Assembly (NCBI GenBank): GCA_000023405.1
Contig: CP001643.1
Span: forward strand, 3,162,001-3,226,000
Origin: Brachybacterium faecium DSM 4810
GTDB lineage: Bacteria; Actinomycetota; Actinomycetes; Actinomycetales; Dermabacteraceae
Reading direction: 5' to 3'
Length of the DNA: 64,000 nt
The notes below the pieces were generated by a model that saw only the letters and a program-made list of their open reading frames with translations, did not search any database and was not told where the DNA came from. The position numbers were made by a program, and so were the translations under genes. The first letter of the stretch is position 1. The number at the start of each line of letters is the position of its first letter. Shown piece by piece: positions 52,560 to 57,665 of the stretch.

Positions 52560-52718
52560 TCAGAAGATGATCAGACAGCCGAGCCCGAAGAGGATGAGGA
52601 AGCCGAACAGGGCGAAGCTCATGAAGTTGTTCTCCGCCGCGGAGGGCTCGCGGTCCTCGGGCACCCAGTCGTCGTGGGACCGGGACTGCGGGGCGGGACG
52701 GTCGTGGATGCTGCTCAT
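52560..52718 (-). CDS. Small single-pass membrane protein, last gene of the NO-reductase operon
   Basis: 52 residues. A polar N-terminal half (Pro/Ser/Asp/Arg) is followed by one hydrophobic helix 'FALFGFLILFGLGCLIIF' reaching the C-terminus. Its ATG overlaps the stop of the preceding gene (ATGA) and AGGAG lies eight bases upstream, so it is very likely translated. Size and topology suggest an assembly or accessory subunit of a respiratory complex, but no family was recognised. Confidence 0.75.
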   Translation of the reverse strand: MSSIHDRPAPQSRSHDDWVPEDREPSAAENNFMSFALFGFLILFGLGCLIIF

Positions 52719-53131
52719 GGAAGGACTCCTAGTCGTCCGAGCTCGGTGAGGACGGAGAGGGTGAGGACGGCGAACACCACTGCGATGAAGGCGGTGTACG
52801 TCCAGCGGTGGCGGTGATCGGCACGCCAGAAGCGCCGCACGCTGAGCACACCGCTGATCCCGGCGATCACGCACAGCACGATCCCCACCGGGGCGGCGAC
52901 CCAGCCTGCGAGGCTCAGCAGCGGCAGCAGCACGGGGATCGCGATGTAGGTGACGAGACAGCGCACCGCTGAGACGACCACCGAGACGCGGAATGCACGG
53001 TGTGCTCCGCGGGCGGACGTCGGATCCGGTGCGCGGACGCCGAGCAGGCGGCGCATCGCACGGTCGGCGGCCCGCTCGGATCGCACCGTCGGCCGCGCAG
53101 CGAGCGAGGGCCGCAGTTCGTCGGTGGTCAC
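52715..53131 (-). CDS. Uncharacterised membrane protein, fifth gene of the NO-reductase operon
   Basis: 138 residues from GTG 53131, which overlaps the preceding stop (GTGA). A basic N-terminus of about 45 residues precedes three hydrophobic helices ('CLVTYIAIPVLLPLLSL', 'GIVLCVIAGISGVLSV', 'FIAVVFAVLTLSVLTEL'), with an Arg/His-rich loop between the last two. No known domain. Overlaps at both ends show it belongs to the coupled operon. Confidence 0.78.
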   Translation of the reverse strand: MTTDELRPSLAARPTVRSERAADRAMRRLLGVRAPDPTSARGAHRAFRVSVVVSAVRCLVTYIAIPVLLPLLSLAGWVAAPVGIVLCVIAGISGVLSVRRFWRADHRHRWTYTAFIAVVFAVLTLSVLTELGRLGVLP

Positions 53132-53544
53132 AGGCCACCTCCGGGAGACTCGATCTCAGCAGGCTCGCCCTCGCGGTGCCCAGTCTCGGACCAGTCCGCG
53201 CGACGGTGCCGCAGCAGGGCCATCGCGCCGAGCACGGCCACGAGGAGCCCCACGGCCCCGATCAGCCCGCCGAGGAAGAACCCCCAGTACAGAGGGCTCA
53301 TGCGGTCGACGCCGGTCTCGACGCCCAGCCCGCTGCCGAAGAGGATGCCGAAGAACGGGGCGAGCAGCGCCACGGCCAGGCCCAGCAGCATGCGCCAGAA
53401 CCCGGACGGGGTGGGCTCCAGCCGAACCCGGCGACCGGGCCGGACGGGAGCGTCCGCAGCAGGCGCGGCCGGGGCCTGGGCGCCCGTCGAGGCCGGGGCG
53501 GGGGGATCGACCGGGGTCGAGGTGCGGGGGTCGTGGTCCGTCAT
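53128..53544 (-). CDS. Uncharacterised membrane protein, fourth gene of the NO-reductase operon
   Basis: 138 residues. The first 45 residues are Pro/Ala/Thr-rich; then two membrane helices ('LLGLAVALLAPFFGILFGSG' and 'GFFLGGLIGAVGLLVAVLGA') joined by a short extracytoplasmic loop, and a charged tail. ATG 53544 overlaps the stop of the stomatin-like gene; its stop overlaps the next GTG. No family recognised; function unknown. Confidence 0.78.
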   Translation of the reverse strand: MTDHDPRTSTPVDPPAPASTGAQAPAAPAADAPVRPGRRVRLEPTPSGFWRMLLGLAVALLAPFFGILFGSGLGVETGVDRMSPLYWGFFLGGLIGAVGLLVAVLGAMALLRHRRADWSETGHREGEPAEIESPGGGL

Positions 53545-54365
53545 GAGGGTCCTCCTGAGCTGTCCTCAGCGGCGGGCGGCGGGCTCGTCCCGTCCTCCCC
53601 GGGGGCGAACTGCTTCAGAGCCCCCATCAAGGGGGTGATGATGTCCATCGGCAGGGGGAAGACCACGGTGGAGTTCTGATCCGCCCCCAGCTCGAGCAGG
53701 GTCTGCAGATACCGCAGCTGGAGCGCAGCAGGGGCCTCGCCGAGGGTCCGCGCCGCGTCCCGCAGCTCCTCCGAGGCCTCGAGCTCGCCGTGGGCGCTGA
53801 TCACCTTGGCGCGCCGCTCCCGCTCGGCCTCGGCCTGGCGAGCCATCGCCCGCTGCATCAGCTCGGGGATCTCCACGTCCTTGATCTCGACGACCACCAC
53901 GTCCACACCCCAGGGCACGGCCTGATGGGCGATCGACTGGTAGAGGTCCTCGTTGAGATCCGCGCGGTGGGCGAGCAGGGTGTCGAGGTCCGCCCGGCCG
54001 ACGACCGAGCGCAGCGTGGTCTGCGCGAACTGCGAGGTCGCCACCGCATGGTTCTCCACCGCCATCACGGAGCGGACCGGATCGGCGACCTTGAACATCA
54101 CCACGGCGTTCACGCGTGCGGTGACGTTGTCGCGCGTGATGACCTCCTGGGGCGGGATGGTCAGGGTGACCACGCGCTGGTCCACCCGCACGGAGCGGTC
54201 CAGGAAGGGCAGCATCAGCACGAGCCCCGGCCCGAGCTCGCCGCGCAGCCGGCCCAGTCGGAAGACCACCAGGCGCTCGTACTCCCGCACCACCTTCAGC
54301 GAGGCGACGAGCAGCGCGAGCAGCAGGGCGGCGACGATGATGACGGCGATCATGACCTCAGACAT
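53541..54365 (-). CDS. SPFH/Band 7 (stomatin-like, slipin) protein
   Basis: 274 residues. One N-terminal membrane anchor 'VIIVAALLLALLVASL', then a stomatin domain: 'REYERLVVFRLGRLRGELGP', 'DQRVVTLTIPPQEVITRDNV', 'TTLRSVVGRADLDTLLAHRA', 'WGVDVVVVEIKDVEIPELMQ', then the coiled coil 'RAMARQAEAERERRAKV'. Very close to the slipin pattern. Slipins build membrane-linked rings and usually partner an NfeD protease; no nfeD is present here, so a different partner in this operon is likely. Overlaps the preceding gene by 8 bases and the next by 4. Confidence 0.93.
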   Translation of the reverse strand: MSEVMIAVIIVAALLLALLVASLKVVREYERLVVFRLGRLRGELGPGLVLMLPFLDRSVRVDQRVVTLTIPPQEVITRDNVTARVNAVVMFKVADPVRSVMAVENHAVATSQFAQTTLRSVVGRADLDTLLAHRADLNEDLYQSIAHQAVPWGVDVVVVEIKDVEIPELMQRAMARQAEAERERRAKVISAHGELEASEELRDAARTLGEAPAALQLRYLQTLLELGADQNSTVVFPLPMDIITPLMGALKQFAPGEDGTSPPPAAEDSSGGPS

Positions 54366-55059
54366 TCCCGTCGGCCTCCCGTCGCTGCGAGGAGTAGCGG
54401 GTGCGGCCGAGCGCGAGGGGCACGGGCTCGCCCGGCTCCGGGCGGCGGTCCGAGGCGTACTCCGTCCGGCGACGCCGGACAGCCTCGGCGGCCTGCGCGC
54501 GCTCCTCGAGGTTCTCGTCCAGCGAGCGGAACAGCACTCCGTCGGGGTCCACGGGCGAGCGGCGCAGGTGGGACCACAGCGGCAGCCCGGCGAGCGCGAC
54601 CGCTCCGGCGATCGCCAGCAGCAGCGCCTGGCTCGCCCAGGTCGCCACCGTGAACGAGGTGACCAGCGGGAACAGCACGGCCAGGACGGTCACGGCGCAC
54701 GCGATCCCGCGGTGGAAGCGGGCCGATTCCGAGGAGGGCCAGGCATCGACGGCGCGGCTGATCTCCCGCCCGTCGTCGGAGGGGGTGCAGGTGTCCTTCA
54801 CCGGGCAGCTGTTGCACACCTGCGGACGCCCCCGATACCGCATCACCCGGTTGCCCGGGTCGAAGGAGGTCGGCCACAGCCACTGGTCCTCCGGGCACAG
54901 CCACGCATCGTGGTCCTCGTGATAGACGAAGCCGAGGTGGTGCTGCTCGGTGGTGACGACATGGGCGCGCCGGGCCAGCAGGTCGATGCCGTAGGCGATC
55001 ACCACCAGCACCACCCCGTAGCCGCCGAACAGCCAGGCGGTCGTCTCGATCCCGCTCAT
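54358..55059 (-). CDS. Uncharacterised Cys-rich membrane protein coupled to NO reductase
   Basis: 233 residues. Helix 1 about residues 9-28, then a soluble loop with C55 ('WLCPEDQW') and C82/C85/C91 ('VCNSCPVKDTC') plus several His (40, 41, 47, 50), which could bind zinc or a metal cluster; two more helices at about 118-140 and 143-163; then a long basic cytosolic tail with 'TEYASDRRPEPGE' and, at the end, 'GRTRYSSQRREADG'. The same Y-A/S-S-x-R-R motif ends the NO reductase. ATG overlaps the norB stop. Candidate: assembly, electron-transfer or iron-delivery factor (inference). Confidence 0.8.
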   Translation of the reverse strand: MSGIETTAWLFGGYGVVLVVIAYGIDLLARRAHVVTTEQHHLGFVYHEDHDAWLCPEDQWLWPTSFDPGNRVMRYRGRPQVCNSCPVKDTCTPSDDGREISRAVDAWPSSESARFHRGIACAVTVLAVLFPLVTSFTVATWASQALLLAIAGAVALAGLPLWSHLRRSPVDPDGVLFRSLDENLEERAQAAEAVRRRRTEYASDRRPEPGEPVPLALGRTRYSSQRREADGNV

Positions 55060-57578
55060 GAGCTCGGCCCCTCGGACTCGTCCTCGCGGCGGTCGGAGGC
55101 GTAGCGGCTGCGCCCCGCGCCCCCGTCGGCCGAGCGGCCGGCCCCGGCGGCGTCCGGGACATCGGCCCGTCGTCGGCCCCGTGCTCGGCCGGGCGGGAGG
55201 GGGCCCGCCTCCGCACCGAGCATCCCCCCGTCGGCGCCGACGGGGGCCGCCGCCTCCCCGGTGCGGTCCGCGCGCGCCGCGGCGGTCTCCTCGACGAAGA
55301 GGGTCTCCGGCTCCATCCGCGTCACCGTGGGGCGGATGGCGTGACGCACGCCGAGCCAGGTGATGAACACGAAGGGCAGCACCCCGCCCACCAGGAAGAG
55401 CACATCACCGGGCATGCGCATCCACTCGAGCACGAGGTTGCCCGGATTGGTGACATAGCCGAGCGTGCGGGCCTCGAAGTAGCCCTGGTTCACCGAGGCC
55501 CACAGCTGCATCACTCCCAGCGGCAGCAGGGTCGCGAACAGCATCCAGGCCAGCCCGATGTTCAGGGACCAGAAGGAGATCTTCGCGAGGCGGTCCGGCC
55601 ACTTCGACGGTCGGATGATGTAGCGCAGGGCGAACAGCGCCAGCCCGACTGCGAGCATCCCGTAGACACCCATCATCGAGCCGTGCGCATGGTTCGCGGT
55701 GAGCGAGGTGCCGATCTGGTAGTAGGAGACGATCGGCAGGTTCACCAGGAATCCGAACACGCCGGCGCCGAGGAAGTTCCAGAAGCCGACGGCGACCAGG
55801 AACATCACGGCCCACCGGTGCGGGAACGGGGCGCTCGAGCGCGACTCCTGGCGGGCGCCGAGCTGCAGGAACGTCCACGCCTCGACGGTGAGGAAGGTCA
55901 ACGGGATCACCTCGAGCGCCGAGAAGACCGCCCCGAGGGCCATGTGCTCCACCGGAGTGCCGGAGAAGTACAGGTGGTGCATCGTGCCGATGACCCCGCC
56001 CGCCGAATAGAGGATCACGTCCAGCAGGATGATCTGGATGGCGATGCGGCGGCGCACCACGCCGAGCATCACGAACAGGTACGCCACCATCACGGTGGTG
56101 AACAGCTCCAGGAAGTCCTCGACCCACAGGTGCACCACCCAGAAGCGCCAGAACTCGGCGACGGTCAGGTGCGTCTCGTTGGTCGCGAGCAGACCCACCG
56201 CGTAGAAGGCGGGGATCGCGAGCGCCGCGTAGACGAACAGCCAGGGCATGTTGAACTTCGACTCGGTCCGCAGCCGCGAGCGGATCGCACGGAAGATGAT
56301 GAGGAACCACAGGAACAGCCCGACGACCAGCAGCACCTGGAAGGCGCGCGGCAGGTCGAGGTACTCCCACTGCTGCGAGAAGAACGGCGACCCCTTCGCC
56401 CAGGAGGGGCCGTAGATGCTGATGGCGGTGCCGCCGAGCATCCCGACCACCACGAGGGCGAGCGCGCCGAGGAGCCCGTAGGAGAGCACGTGCTGCCCCT
56501 TGGGCTCCCGCCCGGCGATGATCGGGGCGAGGAAGATCGCGGCGGCGAGGAACGACGCCGCGGTCCAGAGCAGCGAGAGCTGGACATGCCAGGTGCGGGC
56601 GAGGTTGAAGGGGAAGATCTGGGCGAGATCCAGGCCGAAGAACCCCTGGAGCTCCACCCGGTAGTGCTCGACGGAGGCGCCCACCGTGGACTGGATCAGG
56701 AACAGCAGCGCGACCACGAGGAAGAACCAGGCGGTGGACTTCTGGGCCCTGGTGATGCCGACCTCGCCGGGCTGGAGGAACTTCAGCGCCGTGGTGTCGT
56801 TCCCCTTCCAGCCCAGCGAGCTGCTCCAGCGGCCGTAGACGGCGAAGAGGATGCCGAGTCCCGCCAGCAGCGCCACCAGGGAGATCGCGGACCAGACCAG
56901 GATGTCCGCCGTCGGATGGTTGTCCACGCGCGGCTCGGCCGGCCAGTTGTTGGTGTACGAGTACCCCAACCCCGGGCGCTCCGCGGCGCTCGCCCAGGCC
57001 GTCCAGGCGTAGAAGGCGGTGAGCTCGCGGATCTCCTGCGGGTCGGTGATCGCGTTCGGGATCAGCCCGTGCGCAGTGGTCGGATCCCCGAACACCTCGG
57101 CGTAATGCGAGGTCGCCTCCTCGAACGCGCTGATCTGCTCATCGGTGAGCACGAGGATGCCGGTCTCCTCGTCGAAGCGGTTGGTGCGCTGCATCTGCAC
57201 CGTGGCCTCCGACGGATCCTGCACGCCCTGGGCTTCGAGCTCGCCGCGGATGTGCTCGGAGCTCAGCCGGAGGTACTCGGCGGTGTAGTCCGGACCGAGG
57301 TAGGCACCGTGGCCGACGATCGATCCGTACTGCTGGATGCCGCGGGTGAGGAAGACGTCCTGGCCGCGGGTGATCTCCTCCTGCGTGAAGACGGTCTCCC
57401 CGCTCTCGCTGACCACGCGCTCCGGCAGCGGCATCGAGTCGGTGTAGGTCCGGTACGCGAGGACACCCATCACGAAGAAGCCGAACACGAGCACGAGCGC
57501 GACGCCCTGAACCCATCCCTTGGAGATCGAAATCTCCGAGCGCTTTTCTCCCTGTTCAGGTCTCTGCAGAACACTCAC
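55056..57578 (-). CDS. norB: Quinol-dependent nitric oxide reductase, single-subunit (qNor)
   Basis: 840 residues from GTG 57578. Reduces two NO to N2O using menaquinol. Helix 1 'GVALVLVFGFFVMGVLAYRT' is followed by the extracytoplasmic extension typical of qNor ('ITRGQDVFLTRGIQQYGSIV', 'GPDYTAEYLRLS'), then the heme-copper oxidase-like core with heme and FeB histidines ('RTWHVQLSLLWTAA', 'RFWVVHLWVEDFLELF', 'GTMHHLYFSGTP', 'NHAHGSMMGVYGMLAVG'). The core ends about residue 760; an 80-residue Ala/Gly/Arg tail ending 'GRSRYASDRREDE' is extra. First gene of a six-gene overlapping operon. In a non-denitrifying setting it would detoxify NO. Confidence 0.95.
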   Translation of the reverse strand: MSVLQRPEQGEKRSEISISKGWVQGVALVLVFGFFVMGVLAYRTYTDSMPLPERVVSESGETVFTQEEITRGQDVFLTRGIQQYGSIVGHGAYLGPDYTAEYLRLSSEHIRGELEAQGVQDPSEATVQMQRTNRFDEETGILVLTDEQISAFEEATSHYAEVFGDPTTAHGLIPNAITDPQEIRELTAFYAWTAWASAAERPGLGYSYTNNWPAEPRVDNHPTADILVWSAISLVALLAGLGILFAVYGRWSSSLGWKGNDTTALKFLQPGEVGITRAQKSTAWFFLVVALLFLIQSTVGASVEHYRVELQGFFGLDLAQIFPFNLARTWHVQLSLLWTAASFLAAAIFLAPIIAGREPKGQHVLSYGLLGALALVVVGMLGGTAISIYGPSWAKGSPFFSQQWEYLDLPRAFQVLLVVGLFLWFLIIFRAIRSRLRTESKFNMPWLFVYAALAIPAFYAVGLLATNETHLTVAEFWRFWVVHLWVEDFLELFTTVMVAYLFVMLGVVRRRIAIQIILLDVILYSAGGVIGTMHHLYFSGTPVEHMALGAVFSALEVIPLTFLTVEAWTFLQLGARQESRSSAPFPHRWAVMFLVAVGFWNFLGAGVFGFLVNLPIVSYYQIGTSLTANHAHGSMMGVYGMLAVGLALFALRYIIRPSKWPDRLAKISFWSLNIGLAWMLFATLLPLGVMQLWASVNQGYFEARTLGYVTNPGNLVLEWMRMPGDVLFLVGGVLPFVFITWLGVRHAIRPTVTRMEPETLFVEETAAARADRTGEAAAPVGADGGMLGAEAGPLPPGRARGRRRADVPDAAGAGRSADGGAGRSRYASDRREDESEGPSS

Positions 57579-57635: not shown

Positions 57636-57665
57636 AGATTACACAGCATTTCCCGAAGGGGTCAA
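57636..57665 (-). promoter_or_regulatory. Sigma-70-type promoter of NO-reductase operon
   Basis: On the minus strand TTGACC (57660-57665) and TAATCT (57636-57641) are separated by 18 bases. The transcript would start near 57629, about 50 bases before the GTG. The spacer contains TTCCCGAA (57650-57657), itself a small palindrome when read with its complement TTCGGGAA. No NsrR-type consensus recognised. Confidence 0.55.

Follow-up and report, generated by a model that had tools for sequence, protein, structure and literature searches.

Quinol-dependent nitric oxide reductase (qNor) is treated and studied as a one-subunit enzyme. In the stretch of DNA analysed here, 64,000 nucleotides of Brachybacterium faecium DSM 4810 (contig CP001643.1, positions 3,162,001 to 3,226,000; hereafter the window), a qNor gene heads a run of six genes on the minus strand, from position 57578 down to 52560, which raises the question of whether this enzyme has partners of its own. 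The genes, in the order of transcription, are the following:

55056..57578, minus strand: qNor gene, GTG start, 840 amino acids, with PF22085 and COX1 matches
54358..55059, minus strand: gene of a Cys-rich membrane protein of 233 amino acids, called CysR here
53541..54365, minus strand: slipin gene, 274 amino acids, with a Band_7 match
53128..53544, minus strand: gene of membrane protein 4, 138 amino acids, with two hydrophobic segments judged by eye
52715..53131, minus strand: gene of membrane protein 5, GTG start, 138 amino acids
52560..52718, minus strand: gene of small protein 6, 52 amino acids, with a single C-terminal hydrophobic segment; its sequence begins NNFMSFALFGFLILFG

The successive genes overlap by 4, 8, 4, 4 and 4 bases, as the original prediction stated. 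The start of protein 6 was set from the overlap, the mechanical list of open reading frames holding a longer frame at 53138..52560. The operon was followed through 95 loci, made of 80 loci of named genomes, 9 loci of the same order, the window and loci L142 to L146; L013 duplicates L034, L014 duplicates L039, and the qNor cores of L047 and L062 are identical. Gaps of 30 bases or less were found between qNor and CysR in 88 of 91 loci, between CysR and slipin in 88 of 90, between slipin and gene 4 in 60 of 62, between genes 4 and 5 in 22 of 24 and between genes 5 and 6 in 11 of 14, overlap being the commonest state for these adjacent pairs. Because the start codons of the relatives were chosen by script as those nearest to the BLAST start, single gap values are rough, above all the larger overlaps between slipin and gene 4. 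The tight spacing of the six genes is not due to chance and is kept in relatives. It had been proposed from the overlaps that the products must be made in fixed proportion; gene overlaps do not entail this.

The first gene is identified from its domains and motifs as that of a genuine quinol-dependent nitric oxide reductase. PF22085 (E=3.7e-52) and COX1 (E=4.2e-51) were both matched, so that a cytochrome-c-like NorB domain and the catalytic COX1 domain lie in one chain, and phmmer aligned the protein with solved qNors over residues 26-757 (E=1.2e-149). The histidines of the motifs RTWHxQ, VHLWVE, HHLYF and HAH, which we take to be metal ligands, are identical with those of chain 28pn_A and invariant in alignment A4, which holds 20 of the qNors. 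As the 840-residue translation contains no Cys, it has no CXXCH heme-c motif. The protein thus resembles the solved qNors 8bgw, 6qq5, 3ayf and 6fwf in domains, histidine motifs, core length and lack of heme c. Unlike them, it lies in an operon of membrane partners and carries about 80 extra residues, including RYASDRR, past the match. Matches to the solved qNors stop at residue 757 or earlier, and the C-terminal extension (residues ~767-840) was modelled by AF2 as disordered, with a pLDDT below 50.

The conserved core of the operon consists of qNor, CysR and slipin, and their linkage is real but graded. Slipin was found in 80 and qNor in 78 of the 80 named-genome loci, which were the best 80 of 197 CysR relatives and were picked by their likeness to CysR. 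In the two loci without qNor, L080 and L087 (one Rhodococcus), CysR lies 260 bases from the contig end. Seventy-nine of these loci belong to Actinomycetes of six named orders and one to a bin labelled Acidobacteriota. The CysR of the latter contig (L036), binned as Acidobacteria, is 74% identical to that of the window, and the contig is probably a mis-binned actinobacterial one. Two CysR-slipin blocks each were seen in Brevibacterium daeguense (L032, L033) and Rhodococcus yananensis (L080, L087).

Whole genomes were also searched. Among 297 genomes of the order, CysR was detected in 10 (E<=1e-6) and PF22085 in 11 (E<=1e-10), 10 of them shared (hypergeometric 8.7e-18, kinship ignored); the sole qNor-only genome was G034. 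The arrangement qNor-CysR-slipin was present in 10 of 10 loci of the order, namely the 9 fetched loci and the window. The operon is patchy, with CysR in 3 of 19 searched genomes of the window's genus. Among 396 genomes of the phylum, CysR was found in 9, PF22085 in 11 and both in 7. Here 17 genomes reached E<=1e-5 with the CysR profile, and these fell into two sets. Nine, whose best E was 1.7e-33 or lower, were taken as CysR; the other 8, with best E values from 1.8e-11 to 1.5e-6 and all matches within profile positions 39-106, were taken as transposases. In two phylum genomes with CysR no qNor was found: in G597 the CysR frame contains two stops and its 5,044-base contig bears neither qNor nor slipin, and in G649 CysR runs from base 8 of a contig that bears no slipin. 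In G034 and G426 the window qNor was matched over approximately its first 340 residues only, and these were not counted as full qNors.

Over the 95 loci, slipin was present in 90. The five loci lacking it are all outside the window's class; CysR is present in L142 to L144 and absent from L145 and L146. In L142 to L144, which come from other classes, qNor and CysR are adjacent with no slipin match. Downstream of qNor-CysR in L142 (2984-6035) stand the gene of a small membrane protein and, as read by eye, cydA/cydB-like genes, and no slipin was seen. The distances of qNor, CysR and slipin over 79 loci gave mirror-tree correlations of 0.905, 0.872 and 0.862, with 0 of 300 permutations as high; the three genes therefore travel as a block. 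L066, in which qNor and slipin were each matched in 3 pieces, was excluded from the tree, from the mirror-tree and from the peptide-by-protein-4 table.

The original prediction described four accessory proteins as a dedicated set. For CysR this description stood, and the actinobacterial neighbourhood is conserved for CysR and slipin, neither unlinked occurrence nor lost gene order being seen. It did not stand for the other three: protein 4 was found in only 65 of the 95 loci (profile search) and proteins 5 and 6 in 24 and 14, respectively (tblastn), and genes 4-6 are missing from loci that retain the core. Family scans of the window proteins gave no match at a meaningful score for genes 4-6.

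The finding new here is a short peptide that occurs near the ends of both qNor and CysR. Its copies in the window are:

55086..55103, minus strand: YASDRR at residues 826-831 of qNor, the docking-like peptide of its tail, in the context GRSRYASDRRE
54442..54459, minus strand: first docking-like peptide in the CysR tail, residues 201-206, YASDRR
54379..54396, minus strand: second, degenerate copy in the CysR tail, residues 222-227, YSSQRR, outside the strict motif count

The ends of the two proteins diverge freely apart from Y-A-S-D-R-R, before which stands, in most cases, SR in qNor and RR[TS][ST] in CysR. Under the strict definition the peptide was found in 53 of 93 qNors, 6-23 residues from the end, and in 45 of 93 CysRs (52 copies, three of them in the CysR of L051). 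Of the 91 loci with both genes, the two proteins share it in 41, qNor alone has it in 12 and CysR alone in 4; it is missing from both in 34. When the tails were shuffled, the mean number of copies was 0.02 for the whole set of qNors and 0.06 for the whole set of CysRs. The strict peptide was absent from the remaining four proteins: 0 of 90 slipins, 0 of 62 proteins 4, 0 of 24 proteins 5 and 0 of 14 proteins 6. Its codons vary (Ser TCN and AGY, Arg CGN and AGR) and its residues stay constant; selection therefore acts on the protein. The window genome contains 5 matches to the pattern, only two of which decode as Y[AG]SDRR, one in the tail of qNor and the other in that of CysR. In ten other chosen operon-bearing genomes, 14 of 19 pattern matches fell in qNor or CysR (the L170 site being assigned to qNor by coordinates, the scripted probe being off-centre there), 3 read YASDS, and the remaining 2 lay in short frames elsewhere (YASDRR in L171, YASDRS in L180). 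The qNor tails with the motif were longer, with a median of 63.5 residues (n=30) versus 33 (n=21), 51 of the 93 tails being measurable. The docking-like peptide common to qNor and CysR suggests a physical assembly.

Other tail motifs were seen. An alternative CysR motif, DR[YF]x[TA][RK]WG, occurs in 21 loci (L015, L070, L072, L088, L090, L092, L093, L096-L098, L100-L106 and L108-L111). It stands alone in a mycobacterial clade (16 of 18 tree rows), L110 and L015, and is accompanied by a YASDRR-like peptide in L070, L072, L088 and L090. The CysR tail of L017 carries the fused-looking DRYQTRWASDRR. In some relatives the N-terminal tail of protein 5 (52715-53131 in the window) reads FRSDxxADRxMRRxLG, faintly resembling the shared peptide.

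CysR itself has no full-length family match. Its recognisable part is the following:

54706..54936, minus strand: 4-Cys module and conserved flanking residues of CysR (C55, C82, C85 and C91; residues ~42-118)

The NCBIfam IS1182 transposase model NF033551 matched CysR at E=1.2e-10 over model positions 355-423. CysR is not a full transposase, as the match reached 40.9 bits against a cut-off of 270 and covered 69 of 488 positions. The CysR profile in turn matched 11 transposase-like frames with the same Cys layout (E 7.1e-14 to 8.2e-8), and 10 of 10 scanned weak frames exceeded a Pfam transposase cut-off, the L126 frame lying outside that scan. By these profile matches, the 4-Cys module of CysR is homologous to that of IS1182-type transposases (NF033551, PF13751), with which it shares the layout Y..D.Y/W.C ... 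C..C(P).K..C ... R. Unlike in the transposases, the module of CysR lies between predicted membrane helices, and conserved DQWLW and WPxSxxxRFHRG motifs are added. In alignment A3, made of 62 of the available CysR sequences (L066 being left out), C55, C82, C85 and C91 are invariant, as are W60, L61, R114, F115 and R117 among others. An AF2 model built from the 62 sequences (mean pLDDT 79.7) contains helices at residues 6-40, 111-134 and 141-157, which are predicted to be membrane helices, a beta-rich 4-Cys domain, a helix at 180-197 and a less certain flexible tail; the Cys loop is poorly defined, with a pLDDT below 50 at residues 87-90. Flanking charges indicate that the module probably faces the cytoplasm. 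Searching the PDB for the fold of the model gave 126 matches at E<=10, none of which reached E<=0.001, and the CysR profile had one match among PDB sequences, disregarded at E=0.18. CysR had no match in plasmids, and for CysR and proteins 4-6 the PHROGs database gave families of unknown function at best (E 0.0012) or no match.

The third gene is identified by profile comparison as a slipin, that is, a stomatin-type SPFH protein. Band_7 was matched at E=4.1e-37, the slipin profile aligned with the solved stomatin 9oh9 at E=5.2e-81 (positions 13-249 of 277), and the stomatin-type N-terminal membrane segment, the SPFH domain and the C-terminal stretch are all present. This profile match is common to the solved stomatins and slipins 9oh9, 9wkz and 3bk6; the window slipin differs from them in lying in a qNor operon, in a genome without NfeD. 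The lack of an NfeD partner, already remarked on in the original prediction, extends to the whole genome: PF01957 had no match at E<=0.001 in its 3,614,992 bases, the control genomes being positive in 11 of 14 cases. In PMC12407830, human stomatin is described as enclosing aquaporin-1 and urea transporter-B in a dome-like oligomer, and HflK/HflC with FtsH as an SPFH ring around membrane proteins. The likeness to HflK/HflC would be limited to this ring: the slipin scored below both cut-offs (72.8 vs 159.4 and 51.4 vs 134.4 bits), and none of the six proteins is FtsH.

We propose, with a probability of about one half, that qNor works in a dedicated membrane assembly, in which CysR would be the constant partner and slipin a fence or dome, and in which the peptide would dock qNor and CysR to a common partner. 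CysR, the most constant partner of qNor, would be a membrane anchor for a small 4-Cys module that binds metal and probably lies on the cytoplasmic side. Around the enzyme, slipin would be expected to build a fence or a dome of the stomatin kind. In one large clade, the tails of qNor and CysR would bind one common cytoplasmic partner through Y-A-S-D-R-R; a multivalent slipin oligomer or membrane protein 4 may play this part and so gather qNor and CysR. Genes 4, 5 and 6 would be accretions. A more specific version would have the respiratory enzyme enclosed in a bacterial stomatin dome, with YASDRR loading qNor and CysR into the slipin oligomer and the transposase-type zinc module of CysR serving as adaptor, so that nitric oxide reduction would take place in a fenced compartment of the membrane. 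This version is tentative, and we would sooner expect it to be wrong than right.

Several observations weigh against this assembly. Solved qNors of other bacteria are reported to be dimers of one protein (PMC6713497), and partners are therefore no general need of a qNor. Two actinobacterial qNors, L145 and L146, occur without CysR. The choice of the 80-locus sample via CysR likeness weakens the linkage counts. The peptide is in neither qNor nor CysR in 24 of 87 slipin-bearing loci, and the mycobacterial clade of 18 tree rows retains the core while lacking both the peptide and protein 4, so that the peptide is not needed for the core. Nor does the tree of qNors, as far as the mapped changes go, lend independent support to any partner of the peptide. 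Under a relaxed definition, the peptide was found in 55 of 62 loci with protein 4 versus 2 of 30 without it. This link (odds ratio 110) was not counted as independent evidence, because protein 4 changes state once on the tree and the association is therefore one event. On the same tree, 7 changes are counted for the peptide of qNor and 9 for that of CysR, with no independent joint change, and an independent-pairs test of the CysR against the qNor peptide gave 1.1 same and 0.5 other of 8 pairs (p 1). Slipin, protein 4 and the module of CysR itself are therefore alike as candidates for the partner of the peptide.

Other explanations of the core were weighed against the proposed assembly. According to one of them, the role of CysR, together with slipin, is in maturation or quality control: it stays outside the working enzyme and helps to insert heme or the non-heme iron FeB, or guards folding. 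CysR being the most constant partner, also in L142 to L144 where slipin was not found, and its tight overlap with qNor, which fits co-translational help, speak for such a role. So does the precedent of NorQ/NorD, reported as essential for FeB insertion in cNOR (PMC9976466). The likeness lies in dedicated genes beside a nitric oxide reductase, but the proteins are unrelated and the reductase is of another class; family scans of the six proteins revealed no MoxR AAA+ ATPase and no VWA domain of the NorQ/NorD type. Moreover, a tail peptide common to enzyme and helper suggests lasting co-localisation, and the two qNors of L145 and L146 manage without CysR. We consider a maturation role unlikely, though deserving of some weight.

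SPFH proteins often have broad membrane roles, and genes 4-6 come and go from locus to locus. Both points would suit a membrane-stress package against nitric oxide, whose genes are merely co-expressed and in which protection of the membrane falls to slipin and the small proteins, without contact with qNor. Co-expression alone hardly explains why the tail peptide is in exactly two of the six proteins, or why the block is co-inherited over six named orders, and we hold this explanation to be quite improbable.

Marginally less credible still is that CysR is a redox or nitric oxide-sensing subunit, whose four Cys would hold a centre, iron or iron-sulfur, that acts as electron donor to qNor or as a nitric oxide reporter. 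Four Cys invariant in 62 sequences, beside a nitric oxide reductase, speak for such a subunit. However, the same four-Cys layout is found in transposases, where zinc is the usual guess, and no PDB fold match at E<=0.001 named a redox centre. Finally, the peptide might mark the two proteins for degradation or localisation, being recognised by a protease or other factor from outside the operon, and have no bearing on a complex. We hold this to be very improbable: the peptide lies where such tags usually lie, near the C-terminal end (6-23 residues from it in qNor), but the window genome has Y[AG]SDRR in no other gene, so that a general factor reading just these two proteins would be odd.

Upstream of the operon, one further feature was read by eye:

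57636..57665, minus strand: promoter-like TTGACC / TAATCT pair, ~60 bases upstream of the qNor start

A pair resembling it, also by eye, precedes the qNor of L012. In approximately 300 bases before qNor, the FNR/DNR, NsrR and CRP patterns were each seen in at most 1 of 85 loci, which does not exceed the level in shuffled sequence, and TTAGG in 7 of 85 versus 13.5 in shuffled sequence, that is, without enrichment. In L013 (3456-4235, minus strand) a Crp/Fnr-like regulator gene, identified by eye, lies divergently upstream of the qNor operon; no such gene was seen among the window reading frames just upstream of qNor. In L018 (2567-4141) and L019 (2612-4186, both oriented), qNor is preceded by a conserved divergent gene whose product, judged by eye, is a cytochrome-b-like membrane protein.

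The genome of the window has narG above cut-off and a gene of a NirK-like multicopper protein below the NirK cut-off, so that respiration to nitrous oxide (N2O) is possible. Detoxification of nitric oxide, the role originally predicted, is thus one option and not the sole one. In L189 (1498-3813, minus strand), a NirK-like protein of more than 770 amino acids that falls below the NirK cut-off shows by eye an N-terminal multi-helix part and multicopper motifs. Among open-licence full texts we found none joining stomatin, nitric oxide reductase and operon, none joining SPFH with nitric oxide reductase, none with YASDRR and none joining qNor with gene neighborhood and accessory. A paper on Rhodococcus equi (PMC13332983) names qNor, and the terms 'stomatin' and 'SPFH' are absent from the part of it that was available.

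If many actinobacteria do make qNor with a constant membrane partner and a stomatin, the catalytic subunit by itself would not reveal activity, N2O output or nitric oxide tolerance in these soil and host-associated bacteria. The peptide common to the two tails would offer a short handle on what a bacterial stomatin holds.

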